A stretch of DNA of 33,343 nucleotides from an archaeon (GTDB lineage Archaea; Hydrothermarchaeota; Hydrothermarchaeia; Hydrothermarchaeales; BMS3B). Numbering within the stretch: position 1 is the first letter of the stretch; each line of letters starts with the position of its first letter. The DNA lies in NCBI GenBank assembly GCA_026989875.1, contig JALSIP010000012.1, positions 1 through 33,343 of the forward strand, given 5' to 3'. The notes under the pieces were generated by a model that made no database searches, was not told the DNA's origin, and saw only the letters and a list, made by a program, of their open reading frames with translations. This document shows positions 1 to 33,343 of this stretch, piece by piece. The position numbers and the translations under genes were made by a program.

Positions 1-596
1 GTTCCTGCCAGGTAGCCGGTGGCAAACGCCACGAGCATGGGGAACCAGAGAGATACAGTTATCCCTGCAACCTCGTAGTGAACCACCGGGGGTATGCGTA
101 TTCTGCGTATGAACTCGGCAGCCCTGCTGTTCTGCCTCTCCTCTCTGCCGTTGCCCGAGAGCAGGTCTCTCAGGATTATCAGGGTAATTGCGGTGAGTAT
201 CACTATGAACATCACACTTATATAGAGGTCAGACGCTGCCTTGCCCATGGTCTCAAAGATGTGCTCGTTTATCTTCACCGCTGCCTGCACACCCGCAATA
301 AGCGCGACGAACATGGTTATAGCGAGCTTCTTGTCCACGTGCCCGAGCTCGCCGTGCGCCCTGGAGCCCACGATAGCCTTGCCGAACTTGTGCGTGATGT
401 TTGAGCCCACCGCAAGTATTCCCGGCACACCCAGGTTCATCATGCCAGGAGTCATGATGAAGGCGCCGCCGCTGCCTAAGAAGCCGCTCAGCGTACCGCC
501 TATAAAGCCCAGCAGCACCACCAGCAGCGCTTTCGTAAGTGGCAGGTCAATAAAGGTAACCTCTATGCCAGATGGCGGGGGTACGAATCCACCCAT
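1..596 (-). CDS. TSUP family (TauE/SafE-like) membrane transporter, C-terminus cut by window edge
   Basis: Minus-strand reading from ATG at 596: MGGFVPPPSGIEVTFIDLPLTKALLVVLLGFIGGTLSGFLGSGGAFIMTPGMMNLGVPGILAVGSNITHKFGKAIVGS...; the GxxSGxLGxGGxxxxTP pattern is typical of TauE/SafE permeases. The frame stays open to base 1. Confidence 0.85.
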   Translation of the reverse strand, partial: MGGFVPPPSGIEVTFIDLPLTKALLVVLLGFIGGTLSGFLGSGGAFIMTPGMMNLGVPGILAVGSNITHKFGKAIVGSRAHGELGHVDKKLAITMFVALIAGVQAAVKINEHIFETMGKAASDLYISVMFIVILTAITLIILRDLLSGNGREERQNSRAAEFIRRIRIPPVVHYEVAGITVSLWFPMLVAFATGYLAG

Positions 597-609
597 CTCT
601 TCACCTCCT

Positions 610-1194
610 TCAGTGCGCCTTTGGCTTTATGCCCAGGTACCTGAGGATGTGCGAAACGGTGTTGCCGTAAAAGAACGCCACCGCAAGCACCGTGCCCAGC
701 ACCAGAGCCACCGAGACCAGACCCCTGTGGGTGAGCACTCCCTTTATCATCCCGAAGGACGTGAATATCACCGCATACAGTGCCAGTGCCGCAGCTCCGT
801 ACATCAGTGAGCTCCTGAGCTCGCTCCGTCGGGGATCCGGAAAGACCACCTGCAGTCCGAGCAGCGACTTCCCCAGCCTCTTCGCCAGCTTTGACTCCGC
901 AAGAAACACAACCTCCGGCTTGAGCGCGTTTATATCCTCTGCCGGGTCACCGTTCACCTTCACCAGCGGCACAACCTCAGCGCCAAGACGCTCAAAAGCA
1001 TCCGCGAGCCTGCTGAGAAGTGCCTCAGCACTCTCCTTCTCCTTCTCCGAGTGCACCCGGTAGAACAGGACCACTCTGTTTCTGATACCTTTTCGGGAAT
1101 TACGGGAAAGCCAGCCTGCGCTAAAAGCTGCCAGCTCCTCAGCATTTCCGCTTTCAACTGCAGTGTTGACCACAACAACAGCATTTCTGTCCAT
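610..1194 (-). CDS. Universal-stress-protein-like domain fused to C-terminal transmembrane helices
   Basis: 194 aa; N-terminal alpha/beta USP-like region, then two hydrophobic helices (YGAAALALYAVIFTSFGMI, GLVSVALVLGTVLAVAFFYG). SD-like GGAGG upstream. Confidence 0.65.
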   Translation of the reverse strand: MDRNAVVVVNTAVESGNAEELAAFSAGWLSRNSRKGIRNRVVLFYRVHSEKEKESAEALLSRLADAFERLGAEVVPLVKVNGDPAEDINALKPEVVFLAESKLAKRLGKSLLGLQVVFPDPRRSELRSSLMYGAAALALYAVIFTSFGMIKGVLTHRGLVSVALVLGTVLAVAFFYGNTVSHILRYLGIKPKAH

Positions 1195-1208
1195 TTATAT
1201 CGCCTCCT

Positions 1209-1712
1209 TCAGCTCTGGTCCAGCGCGGCTGCCGCGCTGAGCCTCTTGATCCTGGAAGACAAGGAAAGCGCTATCCTGTCTGTGAACTTCAGCAGCTTTG
1301 GCTTGAACACCACTACAGGGCACGGAGAGTTCCTGATAATCTCCTCAATCACGCTGCCTGAGAACAGCCTTGAGAGTCCCGCTCTGCCATCTGTGCTCAG
1401 CAGGATTGCAAAGCTCCTGAGCTTCTTCGCCTCCCTGACCACCTCCTCGGGGAACCTGCCGGCTCTGATGCTGTAATCAGCATCAACCCCGTGAGATTCA
1501 AACAGCTCTGCAACCTCCCTCAGCTGCGTCTCCTTTATTCTCATGTCCTCAAGCACAGGCGTTGCCGCGTCCAGGTTGTAAACATCCTCAACATAAAGCA
1601 GCGTAACCCTGCCACCCCCGTTCAGCCTCCCCATCCACTCCACCATGCTGGGGACAGCCTTCTTCAGCACCTCCACATCCGTTACCGCAACCACAACATT
1701 TTTGTGCGGCAT
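1209..1712 (-). CDS. Universal stress protein (UspA family)
   Basis: 167 aa; N-terminal VVVAVTDVEVLKKAV and C-terminal SGSVIEEIIRNSPCPVVVFKP are USP signatures; SD AAGGAGG upstream of the ATG. Confidence 0.85.
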   Translation of the reverse strand: MPHKNVVVAVTDVEVLKKAVPSMVEWMGRLNGGGRVTLLYVEDVYNLDAATPVLEDMRIKETQLREVAELFESHGVDADYSIRAGRFPEEVVREAKKLRSFAILLSTDGRAGLSRLFSGSVIEEIIRNSPCPVVVFKPKLLKFTDRIALSLSSRIKRLSAAAALDQS

Positions 1713-1820
1713 ATTAATTCCTCCTTAGCAAACTTATTGTATCACTCTAAAAGCGCAGAATATTTATTTATTTCCCAAATAATTTGCATAAAATCTTCAA
1801 AATGTCTTCAAAAATCTGGC

Positions 1821-1843
1821 AAAAGATTTACTACAAATCTTTT
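1821..1843. repeat. Inverted repeat AAAAGATTT-ACTAC-AAATCTTTT (9-5-9)
   Basis: Read directly; lies in the AT-rich gap 1713-1870, 28 nt past the stop codon of the 1871-2173 minus-strand gene. Confidence 0.8.
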
Positions 1844-1870
1844 AAACTATTCCAAAATTTCTCCTGAACA

Positions 1871-2173
1871 TCATCTGGTGCTCAGGTAAACAAGTATGGA
1901 CAGTGCGATGGTCTCAAACACATCCGCCACCAAGCGGTAGTGGTCAACAACGCTTGAGACATCCACTCCGAAGACAAACACCTTGACTATGGGGGCTGCG
2001 AGCAGCGTTCTGAAGAACAGTGCCAGAGCGAAGAGCAGAAAACCCAGGGTAAAGGTTGATTTCAGCTCTATGTATCGTCTGAAGAATATCCAGACCAGCA
2101 CGCTGAGCAGTAGCAGGTTTATCACGCTGAAGAAGAGCCTGGCTGTCAGAACCGGGTCATCCATGTGCCTCAA
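1871..2173 (-). CDS. Small (~100 aa) membrane protein with about three TM helices; paralog of 2978-3283
   Basis: Hydrophobic segments; contains FTLGFLLFALALFFRTL, shared with the 2978-3283 product. Resembles small membrane proteins often paired with wHTH regulators in archaea (DUF7521-like, from memory). Confidence 0.7.
   Translation of the reverse strand: MRHMDDPVLTARLFFSVINLLLLSVLVWIFFRRYIELKSTFTLGFLLFALALFFRTLLAAPIVKVFVFGVDVSSVVDHYRLVADVFETIALSILVYLSTR
2003..2050. repeat. Exact 48-nt direct repeat, copy 1 (inside 3-TM gene 1871-2173)
   Basis: cagcgttctgaagaacagtgccagagcgaagagcagaaaacccagggt; identical to 3110-3157. Confidence 0.95.
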
Positions 2174-2190
2174 AAAAGAGTGCTGGGGAT

Positions 2191-2200
2191 TAATATATAA
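2191..2200. promoter_or_regulatory. TATA box, possibly shared by the divergent genes 1871-2173 (-) and 2232-2525 (+)
   Basis: TAATATATAA in the 58-bp divergent gap; spacing suits a leaderless or short-leader transcript in both directions. Confidence 0.5.
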
Positions 2201-2231
2201 GTTTTATTGTACATAGTGTGCACAGGTAACC

Positions 2232-2525
2232 ATGAACCGGAAACTGCTGTGGTGGATTTTCGGAGTTACAAGAGGCGGAGTGGTAAGAGCGAAGATAGTC
2301 AAGATGCTTCATGAGCGTCCGAGCAACGCCAACCAGCTCGCTCAGAAGCTGAAGATGGACTACACCACCGTACGCTACCACCTCAACATCCTGCTGAAGC
2401 ACGGCATCGTGGAAACCTCGGAGCACACCTACATAGTCATGTACTTCCTTACCGACAGGATGCTGGAGCACTGGGATGAGTTTCTGAAGATTTACGAAAA
2501 GGTTACAGGAGGTGGGAAGGATTGA
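2232..2525 (+). CDS. Winged-helix HTH (ArsR-like) transcriptional regulator; paralog of 29612-29896
   Basis: MNRKLLWWIFGVTRGGVVRAKIVKMLHERPSNANQLAQKLKMDYTTVRYHLNILLKHGIVE: classic archaeal wHTH. Confidence 0.85.
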   Translation: MNRKLLWWIFGVTRGGVVRAKIVKMLHERPSNANQLAQKLKMDYTTVRYHLNILLKHGIVETSEHTYIVMYFLTDRMLEHWDEFLKIYEKVTGGGKD

Positions 2526-2977
2526 AGGTGCTTGTGCCCACTGACGGCTCCTGGGCGGCATACTCTGCCGAGAGGTATGCGGTTGAGCTGTGCAGGAAGT
2601 ACGGAGGCAAGGTTATTGCGCTGCACGTTTATGACCCCGAGCTCAGCCTTGAAACCTGGAAAGCCAAGCTCATGCGGGAGCTTCTCAAGCGGGTGCAGAC
2701 AGACTCAGATGCCCTTGAGATAGTTGACCGGGTTAAGAAGCTCGGGGAGGATGCTGGCATTGAGGTTGAGAGTGTTATAATCAAGGGGAAGGCAAAACCA
2801 TCGGATGAGATAATAAAGTACGTGAGGCAGCGCGGCGATATTGACCTGATAGTCATAGCCCCCACGGGCAAGAGCCACCTGTTCAAGCTTTTTCTTGGCA
2901 GCACCACCGAAGCTTTAATACGGGAGCTTGGAAAGCTTCTAAGCGTGCCCGTGGTTATAGTGCCCAAGCGGGACTGA
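2522..2977 (+). CDS. Universal stress protein (UspA family), TTG start overlapping the upstream stop
   Basis: KVLVPTDGSWAAYSAERYAVELCRKYGGKVIALHVYD ... GSTTEALIRELGKLLSVPVVIVPK. Confidence 0.9.
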   Translation: MKVLVPTDGSWAAYSAERYAVELCRKYGGKVIALHVYDPELSLETWKAKLMRELLKRVQTDSDALEIVDRVKKLGEDAGIEVESVIIKGKAKPSDEIIKYVRQRGDIDLIVIAPTGKSHLFKLFLGSTTEALIRELGKLLSVPVVIVPKRD

Positions 2978-3283
2978 CTACCTGGTGCTTATGTACAGAA
3001 AGATGGATAGCGCCACCAGCTCAAACACATCCGCAATTAAGCGGTAGGGGTCAACTATCGTGTGGGTTTCCTGGGACAGGAAGACCAGGCGCAGAATGGG
3101 AGAGGCAAACAGCGTTCTGAAGAACAGTGCCAGAGCGAAGAGCAGAAAACCCAGGGTGAACTCTGACCTCACCTCCAGGTACCTTTTTGTGAATATGTAG
3201 ATGAGGAAGGTGAGAATCCCGAGATTTGCAATGCTGAGAATCATTCTTGCCGCCCATATAACATCCACCGCCATGCCTTCCAC
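2978..3283 (-). CDS. Small (~100 aa) membrane protein with about three TM helices; paralog of 1871-2173
   Basis: 101 aa; aligns over its full length with the 1871-2173 product (FTLGFLLFALALFFRTL; ...VDPYRLIADVFELVALSIFLYISTR). Confidence 0.7.
   Translation of the reverse strand: MEGMAVDVIWAARMILSIANLGILTFLIYIFTKRYLEVRSEFTLGFLLFALALFFRTLFASPILRLVFLSQETHTIVDPYRLIADVFELVALSIFLYISTR
3110..3157. repeat. Exact 48-nt direct repeat, copy 2 (inside 3-TM gene 2978-3283)
   Basis: Identical to 2003-2050. Confidence 0.95.
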
Positions 3284-3387
3284 CCTGCATCTGCTTTTTG
3301 TCGGCGGTGTAACTTAAACTTTTCTCCAGAACTGGCAGCAAATCTATTTATGCAATGAGCGACACAGTCTTCACGGGAGGTGAGGAT

Positions 3388-5331
3388 ATGGGAGAGAATT
3401 TAGTTCTAAGAGAAAAGCGTGAGATAGAAGGTAGAAGCGACTCTGACAAAACCATAGACCCGGCAAATCTGGAGATGTTTGAAATCGCCAGAAAGGCGGG
3501 CATGGAAACAGCCTTTGACCGCCTGCTAAGGCAGGAGCCCAAGTGTCCCTACTGCTTCACCGGCGTGAGCTGCAGGAACTGCGCCATGGGTCCGTGCAGG
3601 ATAACTGCAAAGGCTGACAGGGGGGTTTGCGGTGCAACCGCGGACGTGATGGTGGCGAGGGGGCTGCTCAGGAACACCTTAGCTGGCACAGCATCGCATG
3701 TTGACCACGCCAGACATGTGGCGCTTGCGCTGCTGCATGCAGCAAGGGGTGAGGCACCCTACAGGATAAGGGACGAGGCGAAGCTGCGCCGCCTCGGAGA
3801 GACGCTGGGCATAGAGGGCGCCGGCAGCATGCCTGTGGAAAAGCTTGCAGAGGCTGTGGCTGTACTGGCGCTGCAGGAGATAGGTGCCACACACGCCAAC
3901 GGCGGCAGGTGGCTCAGGATGCACGCAACAGAGGAGCGTTTAGAGACCTGGAGCAGGCTGGACGTGCTTCCGGAGGGTGGCATGCTGCCTGTGCTGGAGG
4001 GGATGCACAGGACCAGCATGGGCAATGACGCAGACCCCGTCAATCTGGTGCTGGGCTGCATAAAGGCAGGCATAGCCGACGGCTTTTACGGGCTGCACAT
4101 GAGCACCGACCTGCAGGACGTGCTCTTCGGCACACCGAAGCCAAAGCTCAGCCAGGCTGGAATGGGCGTGCTCAGGGAGGACTGCGTGAACATCGCCTGC
4201 CACGGGCACGTGCCGGTGCTGAGTGAGAAGATAGTGGAGGCAGCAGAGGCTCTTGAGGAGGAGGCGAAAAAGGCTGGAGCAGCGGGCATAAACGTTGTGG
4301 GTATATGCTGCACGGGGAATGAGATTCTTGAGAGGCAGGGCATCCCTGCGGTGGGCAACGAGCTTAACTCTGAGCTGGTTATAGCCACAGGCGCCCTGGA
4401 TGCGGTGGTTGTGGACTATCAGTGCATCTTCCCGGCTCTGGTACCTGCTGCAAAGTGCTTCCACACGAAGATAATAACCACCGCCCCCACGGTGAAGATT
4501 CCCGGAGCTGAGCACGTGGAGTTTGATGAGCGCAGGGCAGATGAGGTGGCGAGGGAAATCGTGCGGAGAGCGATTGAAAACTTCAGGAGCAGGGACAGGA
4601 GCAGGGTTCACATCCCCGAATTCAGGACCCGGGTGCTTGCCGGCTTCAGCGTTGAGGCTCTGCTGGAGGTGCTCTCAAAGCTCAACAGCAGCGACCCCCT
4701 TGCCCCGCTGGTGGAGGCGATATCCTCCGGGGACGTAAAGGGGGCAGTGGCGATAGTTGGATGCAGCAACCCCCGGGTGCCTCATGACATGATGCATGTG
4801 GAGCTTGCAAAAGAGCTGGTGAAGCGTGATATACTGGTGCTCGCCACAGGCTGTGCCGCCCATGCTCACGCAAAGACGGGGCTGATGAAGCCTGAAGGTG
4901 CAGAAATGGCAGGAGAGCGTCTCAGAAGGGTGCTGAAAGTGCTGGGCGAAGCCGCCGGCATGGGAAGCCTGCCCCCCGTGCTCCACTTCGGCTCCTGCGT
5001 TGACAACTCCAGAATCAGCCAGCTCCTGAAGGCTCTCGCTGAGAGGCTGGGAGTGGCAATAAAGGACCTGCCCGTCGCGGCAAGCGCGCCCGAGTACAAC
5101 ACCGAGAAGGCTCTGAGCATAGGCACCTGGGCGGTGGCGCTAGGCATAACCACCCACGTAAATCCGCTGCCCCGAATCACGGGAAGCGAGGTGGTCACGA
5201 GCTTGCTGACCGAGAAGGCAGAGGAGCTGCTGGGTGCGAGATTTCTGCACAGCCCTGATCCCGTGGAAGCTGCTGACATGCTTGAGGAGGTTATACTGGA
5301 GAAGCGCAGAAAGCTCGGGCTGGAGGGATGA
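3388..5331 (+). CDS. cooS: Anaerobic Ni-CO dehydrogenase catalytic subunit (CooS type)
   Basis: ORF 3355-5331; C-cluster motifs CHGHVPVLSE, GICCTGNE, VVDYQCIFP, VGCSNPRVPHD, ATGCAAHAH, FGSCVDNSRI, all with conserved Cys/His ligands; B-cluster CRNCAMGPCRI...RGVCGA. GGAGGTGA at 3376-3383 favours ATG 3388; ATG 3355 is the alternative. Confidence 0.95.
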   Translation: MGENLVLREKREIEGRSDSDKTIDPANLEMFEIARKAGMETAFDRLLRQEPKCPYCFTGVSCRNCAMGPCRITAKADRGVCGATADVMVARGLLRNTLAGTASHVDHARHVALALLHAARGEAPYRIRDEAKLRRLGETLGIEGAGSMPVEKLAEAVAVLALQEIGATHANGGRWLRMHATEERLETWSRLDVLPEGGMLPVLEGMHRTSMGNDADPVNLVLGCIKAGIADGFYGLHMSTDLQDVLFGTPKPKLSQAGMGVLREDCVNIACHGHVPVLSEKIVEAAEALEEEAKKAGAAGINVVGICCTGNEILERQGIPAVGNELNSELVIATGALDAVVVDYQCIFPALVPAAKCFHTKIITTAPTVKIPGAEHVEFDERRADEVAREIVRRAIENFRSRDRSRVHIPEFRTRVLAGFSVEALLEVLSKLNSSDPLAPLVEAISSGDVKGAVAIVGCSNPRVPHDMMHVELAKELVKRDILVLATGCAAHAHAKTGLMKPEGAEMAGERLRRVLKVLGEAAGMGSLPPVLHFGSCVDNSRISQLLKALAERLGVAIKDLPVAASAPEYNTEKALSIGTWAVALGITTHVNPLPRITGSEVVTSLLTEKAEELLGARFLHSPDPVEAADMLEEVILEKRRKLGLEG

Positions 5332-5341
5332 GGTGGCGGAG

Positions 5342-6199
5342 CTAAGCTGGCGCCGCCTCCCTCACAGCCCTCCTTCTTGAAGTGTATGCTAAGTGCACCG
5401 CCGGCAGAGCCACTGCTAAGTAGGCTGCATGCACCAGCACCCTGAGCCACTCTGCCTTGACAGTATAGCCGAAGAGCACCGCAAAGATGCTGCCGACGAT
5501 TCCCTTGTGGTGCAGGGGTGAAGTGCTGCTTATGCCCAGATCATAAGCGGGCTCTCCCAGCCAGCCGAGCTCGTACCCCTGCTCCTCCGCATACTCAACC
5601 AGCTCATGCGTACCATAACCCGCGAGTCCGCCTGCAATCAGCACCAGCATTATGCTTGAGTAGTAGAAGAACCTCCTCAGCGGGAACTTCATTCCGAGAG
5701 AGAAGATGCCGTAGCTCAGCAGCAGCGCGAGAGCAACTCCTGCGGCGGCACCTGCGCTGGTGGCTGCGAAATCTCTCGCTGCAAAGGGGGTCAGGAAGAG
5801 CACCGTTTCTATCACCTCTCTGACGACGAAGATGTAGGCTACCAGCGCAATTGCCAGCCTGCTTCTGCTGCTTCTCACCTTCTCCTCAACATCACGGTGA
5901 ATCTCGCTTCCCTTAGTCGCCATCCAGTAAACCATGTAGGTGAGCACTGCCACCGCAAGCAGGGAGGCAACACCCTCAAAGAGTGCCTTGCTGCCTTCTT
6001 CCAGACCGCCATATATCAGCGCCACCATTAGCGCTATTGCCGCTCCCGACGTCAGAGCAGCAGCGCTGCCATATGCAACGCTCTTAACATGCCCCTCTCT
6101 GCCGGTTCGGCGAAGGTACATCACCAGTATGGACACCAGGAGAAATGCTTCAAAGGCTTCCCGGAAGGTTATCACGAACTGCCCGAGCATCTTCATCAC
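5342..6199 (-). CDS. FTR1-family high-affinity iron permease
   Basis: N-terminal FVITFREAFEAFLLVSILVMYLRR (REXXE-type motif) and second FVVREVIETVLFL motif; multi-TM. GTG at 6199 or ATG at 6196. Confidence 0.88.
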   Translation of the reverse strand: MMKMLGQFVITFREAFEAFLLVSILVMYLRRTGREGHVKSVAYGSAAALTSGAAIALMVALIYGGLEEGSKALFEGVASLLAVAVLTYMVYWMATKGSEIHRDVEEKVRSSRSRLAIALVAYIFVVREVIETVLFLTPFAARDFAATSAGAAAGVALALLLSYGIFSLGMKFPLRRFFYYSSIMLVLIAGGLAGYGTHELVEYAEEQGYELGWLGEPAYDLGISSTSPLHHKGIVGSIFAVLFGYTVKAEWLRVLVHAAYLAVALPAVHLAYTSRRRAVREAAPA

Positions 6200-25662: not shown

Positions 25663-27012
25663 ATGGTGCTGCTATACTACCTCGGCACCATCCTGCTGAG
25701 CACGGGGGTGCTCCTCCTGCTTCCCGCAGCTTCAGCACCGCTCCTCGGCGAACCCCGTGCGCTGCCCGTGTTCCTGGCTCCTGCCCTGCTCTGCATCTTC
25801 TCCGGCTGTTTTCTGCGTGGGCTCTCATCTGCAGGGGTGCCAGAGCGTCTTACTGCATTTAAAGTGGCAGCACTCGGCTGGCTTCTGGCAGCGTTTGCGG
25901 GCAGCCTGCCCTACCTGCTATTCCTGCATTCAGGGGTTGTGGACGCCTACTTTGAGGCTATGTCGGGCTTCACCACCACAGGCATTAGCGTGCTGAATCC
26001 CGGGCAGATGCCCAGGAGTCTGGTATTCTGGCGTAGCCTGACAGAGTGGGCAGGGGGCGTGGGCATTGTGGTGCTGATGCTCGCCTTCTTTCAGCCTGTG
26101 GGGGCTGCGGTCAGGCTGTATCCAGCCGAGGCAAGAAGCGAGCGGCTTGAGCCGAGTATGCTGAGAACCACCTGGAAGATACTGTACATCTACGTCACCC
26201 TCACCCTGGCAGCGATTCTGGTGCTGTACCTGAGCGGTGATGGCGTTTTCAGGGCGGTGAACCATGCCCTCACAGCGGTATCCACGGGAGGGTTCTCAAT
26301 CACTTCAGGAGGATTCGCAGATTCTCCATATGCCACGAGGCTTGCGATTATACCCTTCATGCTGGCAGGGGGCATGAGCTTTGCGCTTCACAGCCGGGTG
26401 ATGGGAGGGGAGTTCAGGAGGTTTATCACCGACCAGGAGGTGCTGGGGATTCTTCTGGTGGTGCTCCTGCTCTCGGGTGCCCTGCACCTTCTGGGCGTGA
26501 GTCTGCTGGATGCTGTGTTCACAGCGGTCTCTGCCATAACCACCACAGGCTTCACCACCCTGGACATCTCAGGCATGAGCGACACCGCAAAGTATCTGCT
26601 GCTTCTCGTGATGCTTGTGGGCGGCTGCACAGGCTCAACCGCAGGCGGAATAAAGATGTTCAGGGCGCTGGTGGTTTTGAAGAGCGCTGAATGGCACCTC
26701 CGCAGGTTTGTGGCACCCAGAGGCGAGCTGCTTCCCCTGAGGCTGAGGGGAAGGAAGACAGAAGAGGAGGTGCTCGCAAGCCTAACCTTCGTGCTCCTGT
26801 ACTTAGGCACGGCTGCTGCCGGGGTGCTTGTTTTCATGCTGCAGGGGCACAGCATGATGGAGGCTGCCTTCACCGTGCTCTCCGCCCAGGGAAATAACGG
26901 ACTCACCGTGCTCTCAGATTACACTGCGCCTGAAGAGGTGCTCATGATACTGCACATGTGGATGGGCAGACTTGAGCTCATCCCCGTGCTTGCCCTTCTG
27001 ATGCGGGAGTAG
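25663..27012 (+). CDS. trkH: TrkH/KtrB-family potassium transporter membrane subunit
   Basis: FEAMSGFTTTGISVL, LTEWAGGVGIVVLML, ALTAVSTGGFS, AVSAITTTGFTTLD, GGCTGSTAGGIKMFRALVVL. Confidence 0.93.
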   Translation: MVLLYYLGTILLSTGVLLLLPAASAPLLGEPRALPVFLAPALLCIFSGCFLRGLSSAGVPERLTAFKVAALGWLLAAFAGSLPYLLFLHSGVVDAYFEAMSGFTTTGISVLNPGQMPRSLVFWRSLTEWAGGVGIVVLMLAFFQPVGAAVRLYPAEARSERLEPSMLRTTWKILYIYVTLTLAAILVLYLSGDGVFRAVNHALTAVSTGGFSITSGGFADSPYATRLAIIPFMLAGGMSFALHSRVMGGEFRRFITDQEVLGILLVVLLLSGALHLLGVSLLDAVFTAVSAITTTGFTTLDISGMSDTAKYLLLLVMLVGGCTGSTAGGIKMFRALVVLKSAEWHLRRFVAPRGELLPLRLRGRKTEEEVLASLTFVLLYLGTAAAGVLVFMLQGHSMMEAAFTVLSAQGNNGLTVLSDYTAPEEVLMILHMWMGRLELIPVLALLMRE

Positions 27013-27014
27013 CG

Positions 27015-27938
27015 CTACCCCCTCACCACAACCACCGGCTTGGTAGCCTGGCATATCACCCCGCCGGTGACGCTGCCTATGAGAAACCTGCTGATGTGCC
27101 CCATGCCCCTGGTGCCCATGACCACCATCCCGTACCCCCCGCGCTCCATCTCGCCCAGAATCTCCTTCACCGGGTCGCCTGAAACCACCCTCACATCGTG
27201 CTGGCTTTCAGCGGGTAGAAGGGTCCTCAGGTGCTCCTCAGCAGCGGCTGCATACTCGGAAATCAGCCTGCGCTTCTCCTCATCACCCAGACCGCTGAGC
27301 GATGAGAAGTACCTCACTGCGGGCTCGTTGACCACGTGGAAGAGCTGCAGGCTGGCGCCGAGGCGGGATGCCAGGCTGGAGGCTGCCTCTATAACCGCCT
27401 TTGAAGCACCTGAGTGGTCCAGGGGGACGAGGATGCGCTTTACCTCCCCGGGGAACTCGGAGCGAGGGCCGACCACCATGACAGGCATGCGGGCGCTCCT
27501 CATCACCTTGTCCGCGGTGCTCCCGAGCGCAACCCTGCTGCCCAGGCGCAGCGAGCCCATTATTATCATCTCCGCCCCCCAGCTCTCCGCCTCCCTGACG
27601 ATCTCCACAGCAGGTTCGCCCTTGCGCACCGCGAAGCCCACCCTGAGCCCCTCGTGGGGAATGTTGTCCACCTCCTCTCTGATGTGCTCCAGAGTCTCCG
27701 CGGCGCTGCGGTCTATCTGCTTTTCAAGCCGCCTCGCCAGCTCACCGACCTCGCAGGCGCCCTTCCTGCAGGAGAGCACCTCGTCCATCTTGGTGAACTC
27801 CTCAAGCTCTGTGGTGTCAGCAACGTAGAGCACCCTGAGCTCTTCGGCGCCGAGGCGTGCCGCAAGCCCCACGGCATGCGCAATAACCCGCCTGGAGTGC
27901 TCGGAGCCGTCGGTGCTCACGAGAAGCCTCCTCATCAC
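27015..27938 (-). CDS. Tandem universal stress protein (two USP domains)
   Basis: 307 aa; RRLLVSTDGSEHSRRVIAHAVGLAARLGAEELRVLYV...GSTADKVMRSARMPVMVVGP and KRILVPLDHSGASKAVIEAASSLASRLGASLQLFHVV...GMVVMGTRGMGHISRFLIGSVTGGVICQATKPVVVVRG. Confidence 0.95.
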   Translation of the reverse strand: MMRRLLVSTDGSEHSRRVIAHAVGLAARLGAEELRVLYVADTTELEEFTKMDEVLSCRKGACEVGELARRLEKQIDRSAAETLEHIREEVDNIPHEGLRVGFAVRKGEPAVEIVREAESWGAEMIIMGSLRLGSRVALGSTADKVMRSARMPVMVVGPRSEFPGEVKRILVPLDHSGASKAVIEAASSLASRLGASLQLFHVVNEPAVRYFSSLSGLGDEEKRRLISEYAAAAEEHLRTLLPAESQHDVRVVSGDPVKEILGEMERGGYGMVVMGTRGMGHISRFLIGSVTGGVICQATKPVVVVRG

Positions 27939-28855
27939 GCACCTCCGAGAGCGCCCCCTGTAAGGGCGTTCTTTATCATGAGCGCACCCACGAAGAGCAT
28001 GAGCACCCCGAAGACCTTCTTGAGGGTGGAGGTGGGTAGATGCCTGTTCAGCCTGGCGCCTATGAAGGTGCCCGCTATGCCGCCTGCCATCAGGAGACCG
28101 CCTATAACCGGGTCAACGTAACCACCCATGAAATAGGTTGCGGTGCCAACGGTGGCTGAGGCGATTATCTGGGTGAGGTCTGTGCCCACTGCCACCTTCA
28201 TGGGAATGCCCAAGAACACCAAACCTGGAACCAGCAGGAAGCCGCCGCCCACGCCCAGAAGCCCGGAGGAGAAGCCCACCGCACCGCCCAGCATGAAGAC
28301 CTGGGGCAGGTTGATGGTGTACTCGGCTATCTTTGTCTTCCTGTATATCTTCATGGGCACAGGCAGCACCATGCCAACATGCAGAAATCTGGCGAGGTGA
28401 TGGAGGGTGCGCCCGATGCGGGTTTCACGGGCTGCAGAAGCTGCGTGCTCGCTGGTTTCGGAGCCTGAGCGCATGAACTTGAGGGCTATGAGGATTACAA
28501 AAACACCAAACACCACCTTGAGCACGGTATTGGGCACGTGCTGCGCAAACCTGGCACCCACAAAAGCCATGGAGGAGCCCGAGACCATGAGTATGAGCGC
28601 CAGCTTCAGGTCAGAGGAGCCGTACCTGTAGTGCTGCAGTGCACCGGAGGCTGCTATGCCTGTGACCTGAAAGAGGCTGGTGCCTATTGCCATCTTTATG
28701 GGCAGCCTGAGGTAGAGGGTGAGAAAGGGCACGATGAGCGTGCCTCCTCCAGCCCCGAGCATGCCGGTGATGCAGCCCACAAGCACGCCGTAAAGCAGCA
28801 CCAGCAGCACATTCACGTCTATGTTTGAGAAGGCAGAGTGAATCACAAAGACCAT
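27935..28855 (-). CDS. TSUP family (TauE/SafE) transporter
   Basis: LYGVLVGCITGMLGAGGGTLIVPFLTLYLRLPIKMAIGTSLFQV ... GGAVGFSSGLLGVGGGFLLVPGLVFLGIPMKVAVGTDLTQI. Confidence 0.94.
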   Translation of the reverse strand: MVFVIHSAFSNIDVNVLLVLLYGVLVGCITGMLGAGGGTLIVPFLTLYLRLPIKMAIGTSLFQVTGIAASGALQHYRYGSSDLKLALILMVSGSSMAFVGARFAQHVPNTVLKVVFGVFVILIALKFMRSGSETSEHAASAARETRIGRTLHHLARFLHVGMVLPVPMKIYRKTKIAEYTINLPQVFMLGGAVGFSSGLLGVGGGFLLVPGLVFLGIPMKVAVGTDLTQIIASATVGTATYFMGGYVDPVIGGLLMAGGIAGTFIGARLNRHLPTSTLKKVFGVLMLFVGALMIKNALTGGALGGA

Positions 28856-28865
28856 GCTCACCACC

Positions 28866-29369
28866 TCATCGCAGCAGCGCTGCACTCAGAAGAGACTTCA
28901 CGGGCATTCTGTCAATTATCATGCTGTAAAGGCTGCTTCTGGTGTTGTAGGGCATTAAAATCACGGGAGCATCACACTTTTTAGCCAGTCTGCTTGCAGG
29001 AATGCCAAAGGGCACAACACCCACCGCGTTCGTCTCCCTCACAGCCTTAGATGCCTCAAGAACAGGGTCACCTATGCCGGCAATGCCAGTGCACCTGACA
29101 CCCTGCTTCCTGCAGAGCTCCCTGAGAGCGTCAACAACCGCCTGCGCCCTCTCAATGCAGCCTTCGGTGATGAATTTCTTCCTTTCATGCACTGTGAAGA
29201 ACTCATCATCAGCGAGACAGGCATTCTTTACAGTTTTCCTGTTCGCAACACATACCGCATAAATATCTGCTCTGAATCGCTTGACCCAATCAACCGCATA
29301 TTTTGAAATTGAATTCACCGTATCATACGCTTTTAAATCAATTGCAAATACGACAGTGGGGGTTCCCAT
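28866..29369 (-). CDS. Universal stress protein-like
   Basis: TPTVVFAIDLKAYDTVNSISKYAVDWVKRFRADIYAVCVANRK...GIAGIGDPVLEASKAVRETNAVGVVPFGIPASRLAKKCDAPVILMPYN; SD GAGGTGG upstream of ATG 29369. Confidence 0.7.
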   Translation of the reverse strand: MGTPTVVFAIDLKAYDTVNSISKYAVDWVKRFRADIYAVCVANRKTVKNACLADDEFFTVHERKKFITEGCIERAQAVVDALRELCRKQGVRCTGIAGIGDPVLEASKAVRETNAVGVVPFGIPASRLAKKCDAPVILMPYNTRSSLYSMIIDRMPVKSLLSAALLR

Positions 29370-29433
29370 GTTATCCACCTCGTTCAGTGTATGATGGTGG
29401 ATAAAACACGCATAATACTTATTTTTTATCCGA

Positions 29434-29453
29434 AAATCATTTCAAAATGATTT
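29434..29453. promoter_or_regulatory. Palindrome AAATCATTT-CA-AAATGATTT, candidate operator
   Basis: 9-2-9 perfect inverted repeat in the AT-rich divergent gap between a USP gene and a wHTH gene. Confidence 0.55.
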
Positions 29454-29611
29454 AAAAGTCAGATAAACGTCATTTACATGATTTTTACATCTCTTTTCAC
29501 ACATTTCCCAAACTAATCCAGTTACAGTTAAATTTTTATTTGCAATCTTTTAGTGTTAGCTGTGTAAAACTGGCAGGCAATAGTGGTAATTCCATGGAGA
29601 TTTAAGGGGAT

Positions 29612-29896
29612 ATGAACAAAAAGCTGCTATGGTGGATATTTGCAGTAACCAAGGGTGGCACGGTCAGAGCAAAAATCGTGAAGAGGCTCAGAGACAGGCC
29701 ATCCACCACAAGCCAGCTTGCAAGAGAGTTCAATCTGACATATCAGGACATAAGGTATCATCTCAGAATTCTGAAGGAGCACAATCTGGTTGAATCAAGC
29801 AACACTTCCATTGCGGTTTACTTTGTGACAGATGAAATGGAGAGGAACTGGGATGAGTTCATGAGAATCCTGAAGGCTATCAGGGGCTCTGAGTGA
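29612..29896 (+). CDS. Winged-helix HTH (ArsR-like) regulator; paralog of 2232-2525
   Basis: MNKKLLWWIFAVTKGGTVRAKIVKRLRDRPSTTSQLAREFNLTYQDIRYHLRILKEHNLVE; shares the KLLWWIF.VT.GG.VRAKIVK N-terminus. Confidence 0.87.
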   Translation: MNKKLLWWIFAVTKGGTVRAKIVKRLRDRPSTTSQLAREFNLTYQDIRYHLRILKEHNLVESSNTSIAVYFVTDEMERNWDEFMRILKAIRGSE

Positions 29897-30040: not shown

Positions 30041-30559
30041 ATGAGCGAGGGCTCGGAGTGTGAGGCAAGGGTTAAGGAGCTGGAGGAGGAGCTTGCCAGA
30101 ACAAGGGAAGAGCTGGAGAAAGCGAGGGGTGAGGCTGAGAGCTACCTGAACCGGCTGCGCTACCTGCAGGCAGACTTTGAAAACTACCGCAAACGCATGC
30201 AGCGGGAGCGCGAGGAGCTTGTGCGCACCGCCTCGGAGCGGGTGGTTACCAGGCTCCTGGAGGTGCTGGACAGCTTTGAGCTTGCCCTTGAGAGTGCAAA
30301 GCGCACCAGAGGTAAGAGGGCTCTGGTGGAGGGTATGCAGCTCATCTACACCCAGCTTCGCGGGATTCTTGAGAAGGAGGGCTTAAAGGAAATCCCCTGC
30401 GAGGGTTGCTTAGACCCCTACTACCACGAGGCTGTGGCGGTGGAGGAGAAGGAGGACTGCGAAGATGGCGAGATTCTTGAGGTGCTGCAGAAGGGCTACA
30501 CCTTAAACGGCAAGGTTATCCGCTACGCCAAGGTTAAGGTGGCTAAGAGAGGTGGTTGA
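30041..30559 (+). CDS. grpE: Nucleotide exchange factor GrpE
   Basis: [77 protein letters not shown]. Confidence 0.95.
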
Positions 30560-30560
30560 C

Positions 30561-32486
30561 ATGGCTAAGGAGCGCATCCTCGGTATAGACCTGGGCACAA
30601 CCAACTCCTGCATGGCGATTATAGAGGGGGGCGAGCCCACGGTAATCCCCAACGCAGAAGGCGGGCGCACCACCCCCAGCATGGTGGCTTTTACCACCAA
30701 GGGCGAGCGCTTAGTGGGCATGGCGGCGAAGAAGCAGGCAATCGCCAACCCGGAGCGCACGGTCTTCTCAATAAAGCGCTTCATGGGCAAGACCTACGAC
30801 GAGGCAATAGAGGATGTGAAGCGCATGCCCTACAGGGTTGTGCGCGGACCAAAAAACGACTGCAGGGTCAGGATAGACGACAGAGAGTACACCCCGCAGG
30901 AAATCTCGGCGATGATTCTGAAGAAGCTTAAAGAAGACGCGGAGAACTACCTGGGTGAGAAGATAACCAAGGCTGTTATAACAGTGCCAGCCTACTTCAA
31001 TGACTCCCAGAGGCAGGCGACCAAGGACGCTGGCAGAATCGCTGGCTTAGAGGTGCTCAGGATAATCAACGAGCCCACCGCTTCCACGCTTGCCTACGGC
31101 TTCAACAAGGACGAGGAGAACCGCATCCTCGTGTACGATTTAGGCGGGGGAACCTTTGACGTGAGCATTCTTGAGACGGGTGAGGGGGTGTTTGAGGTCA
31201 AAGCCACCGCTGGAGACACCCACTTAGGCGGGGACGACTGGGACCAGAGGATTATAGACTGGCTGATTCAGGAGTTTAAAGAGCAGGAGGGCATTGACCT
31301 GAGCAAGGACAGGATGGCGATGCAGCGCCTGAAGGATGCGGCAGAGCGCGCAAAGATTGAGCTTTCAGGGCTCAAGGAGACGGAAATCAACCTGCCCTTC
31401 ATAGCTGCCGGCGAGGACGGGCAGCCCAGGCATCTCAGCGTCACTCTGACGAGGGCGAAGTTTGAGGCTATGACCAAAGACCTGCTGGAGCGCACCGTTC
31501 AGCCAATGAAGCAGGCTCTCAGCGATGCCAAGCTCTCGCCAGAGGACATTGACAAGGTCATTCTTGTCGGGGGAGCTACGAGAATGCCCATGGTGCAGCA
31601 GCTGGTGAAGGACTTCTTCGGCAAGGAGGCGTACAAGAACATTAACCCCGATGAATGCGTTGCCATAGGCGCGGCGGTGCAGGCGGGCGTGTTAGCCGGC
31701 GAGGTGCGAGACCTCCTGCTGCTGGACGTGATTCCGCTTTCGCTGGGTATTGAGACTCTTGGAGGAGTGTTCACCAAGCTCATAGAGCGCAACACCACCA
31801 TACCCACCCGCAGGAGCAAGGTCTTCACCACTGCAGCAGACAACCAGACAAGCGTTGAAATCCACGTGCTCCAGGGCGAGCGTCCAATGGCGCAGGACAA
31901 CCACAGCCTCGGGCGTTTCATCTTAGATGGCATTCCTCCAGCTCCGCGCGGCGTGCCCCAGATTGAGGTCACCTTTGACATAGATGCCAACGGCATCCTT
32001 CACGTCTCTGCGAAGGATTTGGGAACAGGAAAGGAGCAGAGCATCAGGGTTACAGCTACCACCAACCTGAGCGAGGAGGAGATTCAGCGCATCCTAAGGG
32101 AAGCCAAGGAGCACGAGGAGGAGGACCGCAGGCGGAAGGAGCTGGTGGAGGCGAAGAACGAGGCTGACTCGCTGCTCTACACCTCCGAAAAGACCATAGA
32201 GGAGTTCAGGGATAAGGTGCCGCAGGAGAAGGTTGAGGCGGTGAGGAAGGCGATTGAGGAGCTTAAGGAGGCGGTGAAGGGCGACAACATCCAGGAGATT
32301 AAGAGCAAAACCGAGGCTCTGCGAAAGGCGGTGAGCGAGATAGGAGCTGTGATATACCAGCAGGCGGCTCAGCAGGCACAGGCGCAGCAGGCGCAGGGGG
32401 AGCAGGCGCAGGCGGCGGGCAGCGGTAACGGGCAGGGCGAGAAGGTTATAAACGCGGAGTATGAGGATGCAGAGAAGAAGAGCTGA
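30561..32486 (+). CDS. dnaK: Chaperone DnaK (Hsp70)
   Basis: [73 protein letters not shown]-terminal Q/A-rich tail. Confidence 0.98.
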
Positions 32487-32491
32487 GCTGC

Positions 32492-33343
32492 ATGGCTAAG
32501 AGGGACTACTACGAGGTTCTCGGGGTGCCGAGGAATGCAAGCCAGGAGGAGATTAAGAAAGCCTACCGCAGGCTGGCGCTGAAGTACCATCCCGACAGGA
32601 ACAAGAGCAGGGAGGCGGAGGAGAAGTTCAAGGAGATCAGCGAAGCCTACGCGGTGCTCTCTGACCCGGAGAAGCGCAGGCTCTATGATATGTATGGGCA
32701 CGCTGGTATAGATGAGCGCTACTCGCAGGAGGACATCTTCCGCTCGGCACGCTTTGATGACATCTTCGCGGACCTGGGCTTCGGTGGCATAGACAGGCTC
32801 TTTGACCTCTTTTTTGGCGGTGCTAAGCATGCTCCAAGGCGCGGCGCTGACCTGCGCTTTGACATGGAGATTACCCTTGAGGAAGCTGCAAAGGGCGCGG
32901 AGAAGGTGGTGAGCTACCGCCGCCTTGAGACCTGCTCGCACTGCGGCGGCAGCGGCGCAGAGCCAGGGAGCGGTCTCAGAACCTGCCCCGCCTGCGGGGG
33001 TGCCGGGAGAGTGGGTTTCACCCAGCGCACGCCCTTCGGCACCTACTCGCAGTTCACCACCTGCTCGCAGTGCGGCGGCTCCGGAAGCGTCATCGCCAAG
33101 CCGTGCAGCACCTGCGGCGGCTCTGGCAGGGTGGAGAGGCTGCGCAGGCTCAGTGTTAAGATTCCTCCGGGCGTTGACTCGGGGGCAAGGCTGCGCTTGG
33201 CTGGGGAGGGTGAGGCAGGGGAGAGGGGGGCACCTCCGGGGGATCTGTACATCGTAATTCACGTGAAGGAGCACGAGCTCTTTAAGCGTGCCGGTAAGGA
33301 CCTTTACATAGAGGTGCCGATAACCTTCTCCCAGGCGGCGCTG
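32492..33343 (+). CDS. dnaJ: Chaperone DnaJ (Hsp40), C-terminus cut by window edge
   Basis: [38 protein letters not shown]; zinc repeats [32 protein letters not shown]; frame open at window end. Confidence 0.97.

Follow-up and report, generated by a model that had tools for sequence, protein, structure and literature searches.

A winged-helix regulator gene paired with a three-helix membrane-protein gene in archaea, and its association with TSUP and universal stress protein genes in Hydrothermarchaeota

Does a cluster of regulator, membrane-protein and transporter genes in a deep-sea archaeon form a single membrane-sensed module, and which of its parts are conserved together? The cluster consists of seven adjacent genes, encoding a TSUP (TauE/SafE) transporter, three proteins with universal stress protein (USP) character, a winged helix-turn-helix (wHTH) regulator and two small proteins with three transmembrane (3-TM) segments. 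It lies at the start of contig C12 (JALSIP010000012.1) of the Hydrothermarchaeota metagenome-assembled genome (MAG) G000 (GCA_026989875.1; 1.44 Mb in 120 contigs). The window analyzed here is this whole contig of 33,343 nucleotides. A sequence-only reading had joined all seven genes into one candidate under-described module for a membrane-sensed stress or sulfur-compound response. All seven open reading frames (ORFs) are present in the order that it gave, and Pfam identifies a TauE protein, two USPs and an ArsR-type HTH protein among them. The unit conserved across archaea, however, is only the wHTH gene with a 3-TM gene; outside Hydrothermarchaeota and one further genome (G044), this pair has other neighbors.

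The wHTH and 3-TM gene pair

The 3-TM and wHTH proteins were searched over 23 genomes of the phylum, and a 3-TM profile was searched over 394 relatives; genes in the neighborhoods of the resulting loci were called and annotated with local profiles. Outside the phylum, a wHTH gene of the family lay immediately upstream of the 3-TM gene, on the same strand, in 28 of 28 testable loci (30 loci, minus those cut by a contig end). In a second set from outside the phylum, which partly overlaps the first, the same tandem was found in 40 of 44 loci, many with a 4-bp overlap between the genes. Two of the four exceptions were contig ends and one was divergent. The suggestion that a wHTH and a small membrane protein belong together thus holds well beyond the window. 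Up to six 3-TM copies occur per genome, six being found in one methanogen-like genome, and the carriers appear to be Nitrososphaeria-, Methanobacteriota- and Thermococcus-like. Literature searches brought up no description of the wHTH/3-TM pair.

The regulator of the seven-gene locus, wHTHa (2232..2525, plus strand), is an ArsR-fold protein of the HTH_5 family (PF01022, 41.1 bits against a cut-off of 22). Its AlphaFold model has a mean pLDDT of 92.9, and the Protein Data Bank (PDB) matches to the model are of MarR/ArsR type, CzrA and HlyU among them. Within a named collection the closest relatives of the genome are Candidatus Hydrothermarchaeota MAGs, at up to 99% identity in this protein. Matches at E<=0.001 occur in 19 of the 23 genomes, the weakest reflecting general HTH similarity. 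ArsR proteins of thaumarchaea assigned to arCOG03067 (mentioned in PMC5847659) may be relatives of the family. The protein is about 97 amino acids long and carries no ligand domain, and neither wHTHa nor its paralog wHTHb contains a cysteine with which to sense metals or thiols. It also scores below the cut-offs of the NCBIfam metalloregulator model NF033788 (36.2 against 55) and the SdpR model NF033789 (36.5 bits against 100). Since wHTHa has neither a cysteine nor room for a ligand domain, its signal is likely to come from a partner.

The likely partner of wHTHa is 3TMa (1871..2173, minus strand), whose homologs adjoin a wHTH gene throughout archaea; the second 3-TM protein of the locus, 3TMb (2978..3283, minus strand), is its paralog at 54% identity. 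Scanned at E<=0.1, 49 members of the 3-TM family gave no consistent Pfam or NCBIfam assignment. Weak Pfam matches of single members to DUF7649, DUF2569 and ECF were scattered and inconsistent, and were set aside. Small haloarchaeal membrane proteins of DUF families may be relatives. A fold search with the 3-TM model found nothing significant, and the 3-TM profile matched no PDB sequence. The membrane half of the pair is thus undescribed in Pfam and NCBIfam, as the term under-described had implied. In the model, built for one protein (pLDDT 84), three long helices and one short helix span residues 7-37, 40-59, 61-68 and 76-99. The loop between the first two transmembrane segments is basic and conserved (2.96 K+R; mean entropy, 1.88 bits) and the next is acidic and the most variable (3.01 bits), and the protein is therefore predicted to have its N terminus outside and its C terminus inside.

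Two loci in the window

In the first locus, here called type A, the 3TMa and wHTHa genes are divergent. They are separated by a short intergenic region (2174..2231) that contains a conserved TTAATATATAAG, a candidate for overlapping bidirectional promoters in which comparison of orthologous upstream regions finds a TATA-like core kept among type A loci. This region would be the expected control point. Downstream of wHTHa and overlapping it by 4 bp (TTGA) is the gene for Usp2 (2522..2977, plus strand; PF00582, 76.5 bits), so that translational coupling of the two, as the sequence-only reading proposed, is plausible. On the 3TMa side, all on the minus strand, follow Usp1 (1209..1712; PF00582, 58.7 bits), a free USP with a C-terminal extension and orthologs in relatives; UspTM (610..1194); and TSUPa (3..596; PF01925, 59.9 bits against a cut-off of 32.6). 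UspTM had been described as a USP fused to transmembrane helices. It has two such helices and is conserved in relatives, and profile-profile comparison indicates that its N-terminal half is USP-like (hhalign against the USPs of these loci; probability, 91%; E, 9e-7), but the Pfam scan of the window proteins gave it no USP match. TSUPa lacks its 3' part because the window is the entire contig and the gene runs into the contig start; full-length orthologs in the same gene order are present in G004, G005, G007-G010 and G001.

Complete or partial type A loci are found in G000, G004, G005, G007, G008, G009 (two contigs), G010 and G001. Relatives keep the 3-TM gene divergent from wHTH-Usp2, with Usp1, UspTM, TSUP and, in many cases, another Usp on the 3-TM side, and this gene order is more than chance.

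A second, paralogous wHTH/USP/TSUP locus (type B), absent from the sequence-only reading, lies at 27015-29896. Its minus-strand genes encode UspUsp, a tandem USP-USP protein (27015..27938; PF00582 in two stretches, 163.7 bits); TSUPb (27935..28885; PF01925, 186.9 bits against 32.6); and Usp3 (28866..29378), a divergent USP-like protein found by an iterated USP profile and without a match in the Pfam scan. Divergent from them is wHTHb (29612..29896, plus strand), 55% identical to wHTHa. The two TSUPs are only about 29% identical, and types A and B are therefore not the product of a recent duplication. Type B also occurs in G014, there with a 3-TM gene in tandem, and in G001, where Usp3 was not called; G009 and G004 have the Usp3-TSUPb-UspUsp run, or a part of it, where a contig ends.

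The trees of wHTH and 3-TM proteins both resolve groups A, B and C, the last being described below. The window's 3TMb branches with the type B 3-TM protein of G014 (90/71), apart from 3TMa, and wHTHb branches with the type B wHTH (99/98). Thus, 3TMb, which had been counted as part of the seven-gene module, probably belongs with wHTHb as a partner that has been displaced, and may serve it in this genome; the short length of the proteins limits support to a moderate level.

When read against the ATP motif G-X2-G-X9-G(S/T), Usp2 (A-P-T-G-X9-G-S) and Usp1 (S-T-D-G-X9-G-S) have the first glycine replaced, and the second domain of UspUsp carries the full motif (GTRG-X9-GS). Usp1 (1209-1712) and Usp3 (28866-29378) have conserved C-terminal extensions past the USP fold, which might bind the membrane or a transporter.

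Other genes adjoin both loci. Next to 3TMb is a gene for a CooS-type CO dehydrogenase (739 bits), followed by one for an FTR1-family iron permease (3355-6199); in G004, too, the locus borders on a CooS gene, truncated by the contig end so that only its start is present. A gene for a TrkH-like K+ transporter (25663-27012) converges on the type B locus, and complete grpE and dnaK genes with a partial dnaJ, named from sequence, lie directly downstream of wHTHb (30041-33343).

Transporter, sulfur and thiol-redox neighborhoods

Of the 23 wHTH genes of the phylum, 12 have a TSUP gene no more than 5 kb away, against 0.51 expected from TSUP density. A third case of a wHTH divergent from USP and TSUP genes was found on contig C64 of G014, and G044, the sole genome of its phylum in the set, has four 3-TM genes, two of which flank TSUP and USP genes. 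In one locus elsewhere (L132), a TSUP gene 2.7 kb from the pair was judged incidental. For the module as first proposed, the neighborhood survey thus gives a divided answer: the pair is conserved, and TSUPs exceed chance within the phylum with USPs in the same loci, but neither family is part of the archaea-wide unit. The original observation is confirmed and its interpretation partly supported.

The link to sulfur or anion transport draws on several neighborhoods. In G005, G007, G008 and G009, the wHTH-Usp2 side of the type A locus runs into genes for a SulP sulfate permease, USPs and a sodium:sulfate symporter (Pfam-scanned in G005; in the other three assigned from synteny, with a search as further evidence for SulP), and SulP beside the locus was recovered in relatives at 2.6e-90. 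The stretch L075 (8435-13578) has SulP-STAS permease and Na/sulfate symporter genes with USP genes between them, directly at a type A locus, a layout repeated in three more relatives. The window's own genome also encodes a 661-amino-acid TSUP-USP-USP fusion (L161, 5903-7885; contig C120 of G000), and long ORFs resembling it occur in G003-G009 and G019; the fusion suggests joint action of TSUP and USP. DsrA scores above its cut-off in G000 and 12 other genomes of the phylum, for which sulfate-reduction potential has been reported (PMC6775978, PMC6759336). Together, dsrA, this reported potential and the fusion make a sulfite- or sulfate-type substrate plausible; the earlier sulfur/anion idea gains from these genes, from SulP and from the symporter, all of it context, since sequence does not predict the substrate. 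Searches of the papers at hand brought up neither a coupling of wHTH-3TM to TSUP-USP nor the TSUP-USP-USP fusion.

A different neighborhood defines type C, in which a wHTH-3TM tandem or a lone 3-TM gene stands beside genes for thioredoxin-like, PCYCGC, DsbD_TM/CcdA, CcmF and multiheme cytochrome proteins. Among the type C-like 3-TM proteins sampled, six of nine have two cysteines in the outer regions and the rest have one. An outer pair is also present in one 3-TM protein of G044, and none in types A and B. Predicted extracytoplasmic cysteine pairs were seen in the 3-TM proteins of L084-L093 and of L130 (8475-8762).

A proposed membrane-coupled switch and its alternatives

In the reading that we put forward, wHTH and 3-TM proteins would form a two-protein, membrane-coupled regulator. 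The 3-TM protein, lying N-out/C-in, would touch the wHTH through its conserved cytoplasmic loop (Y..xKSxFTLG) and read the signal through either the variable outer loop or the membrane-embedded part. Arrival of the signal would lead the 3-TM protein to release or capture the wHTH, ArsR-fold and free of cysteines, at the membrane, thereby switching the divergent promoter that serves wHTH-Usp2 on one side and the USP/TSUP genes on the other. The output in the window would probably be transport of a sulfite- or sulfate-type anion, with the USPs as nucleotide-dependent modulators of the transporter, and wHTHa-3TMa and wHTHb-3TMb would be two such pairs. Because the outer face of the 3-TM protein matches its operon, a sensor is the simplest reading. 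A sensing role of the 3-TM protein, its control over the wHTH and the place of the TSUP and USP genes as targets are steps we infer from gene context and protein features. We regard the case for the proposal as a whole, in which the 3-TM protein is the membrane sensor or tether and the ArsR-fold regulator controls anion transport associated with USPs, as evenly balanced.

In kind, the pair belongs with known systems of regulator and membrane partner. In Bacillus subtilis, the ArsR-type repressor SdpR is captured at the membrane, in a signal-dependent manner, by SdpI, the product of the next gene (PMC1626106). The loci outside the phylum show the same two-gene layout, an ArsR-type wHTH gene (an autorepressor in SdpR) followed by a membrane-protein gene, in the 28/28 and 40/44 tandems given above, whereas type A, including that of the window, is divergent. 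Unlike SdpI, the 49 3-TM members gave no SdpI match among their Pfam/NCBIfam matches, and unlike SdpR, the wHTH stays far below the SdpR model and belongs to an archaeal pair with no toxin ligand known. The resemblance would thus be one of logic, membrane capture, not of homology. Transmembrane transcription regulators such as ToxR, CadC and archaeal ArnR also tie transcription to a membrane-embedded part, but in a single chain of DNA-binding and transmembrane domains (PMC10269533), whereas the window and its relatives have separate ORFs. With ArsR/SmtB metalloregulators the wHTH shares the winged-helix fold, the HTH_5 match and CzrA/HlyU among its PDB matches, but not their cysteines or model score. 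TSUPa, TSUPb, Usp1, Usp2 and UspUsp are clear members of their Pfam families, differing from known cases in their genomic coupling to wHTH-3TM and in the TSUP-USP-USP fusion. In KdpD, a USP domain is the nucleotide sensor through which c-di-AMP controls K+ uptake (PMC4686210); the USPs here are similarly candidate nucleotide-binding controllers in an ion-transport system, though without a histidine kinase. The new elements are the wHTH/3-TM pair itself, spread across archaea and so far undescribed, its twofold use with USP and TSUP genes on one contig, and the form with a cysteine pair in thiol-redox operons.

Several points weigh against the proposed switch. The upstream-region comparison yielded no shared operator that could be argued for. 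The wHTHb gene has no adjacent 3-TM gene in the window, nor in the stretches of G001 and G009 that were analyzed. Type A loci are orthologous, so that the 12 of 23 are not independent; counted by context, about 3 of 8 have a TSUP, still unlikely by chance (4e-4, assuming 2% per context). The TSUP/USP association is restricted to Hydrothermarchaeota and G044, and a role of these genes as targets is therefore not general. Finally, TSUP substrates vary, and for this reason sulfite is no more than a plausible candidate.

Three alternatives were weighed. The wHTH might be a classical repressor that senses a cytoplasmic ligand and represses the 3-TM gene, whose product would be a small transporter, part of a channel or a protein that protects the membrane, with no membrane signaling. 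Overlapping tandems in the order wHTH, then 3-TM, are typical of such systems, and archaeal wHTH repressors of membrane-protein genes are known (YtrASa; PMC6746942). Set against this are a wHTH of about 97 amino acids with neither ligand domain nor cysteine metal site, an outer loop that varies with the neighboring operon, as expected of a sensor, and the poor suitability of monomers of about 100 amino acids with variable loops as transporters. We consider this explanation unlikely. It is quite improbable, in our estimate, that only the pair is functional and the USP and TSUP genes are coincidental, co-inherited neighbors. The other neighbors of the pair beyond Hydrothermarchaeota and G044 would fit such a case, but two paralogous loci with strongly diverged TSUPs both hold a wHTH divergent from USP/TSUP, G014 adds the third and G044 also carries the arrangement, and the excess of TSUPs over expectation (12 against 0.51) speaks the same way.

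A toxin-antitoxin-like pair, with the 3-TM protein as a membrane toxin silenced by the wHTH, would account for a small two-gene operon with a patchy distribution and a copy number that reaches six in one methanogen-like genome. We give it very little credence, given its long-conserved place in loci of types A and C, the divergent or separated genes in Hydrothermarchaeota and the orphan wHTHb. A survey of type II toxin-antitoxin systems (Makarova 2009, PMC2701414) also left out pairs of Xre-HTH and membrane proteins, none with a membrane component being known.

Beyond the window, membrane-coupled switches of this kind may be widespread in archaea, as a class absent from the family databases in which two genes supply a conserved wHTH and a 3-TM sensor with an outer loop tailored to the neighboring operon. 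Next to genes for cytochrome c assembly, for example, two extracytoplasmic cysteines would serve to read the thiol-redox state, and sensors that lack cysteines would control sulfite/sulfate transport modulated by USPs. We offer this generalization tentatively. Few routes from a membrane signal to transcription have been characterized in archaea, and the conserved pair is a candidate for a simple and general one. Concrete candidate signals are provided by the TSUP/SulP/USP link in putative sulfate reducers and the thiol-redox link of the cysteine-pair version, and some carriers appear to be methanogen- or Thermococcus-like, where experiments may be feasible.

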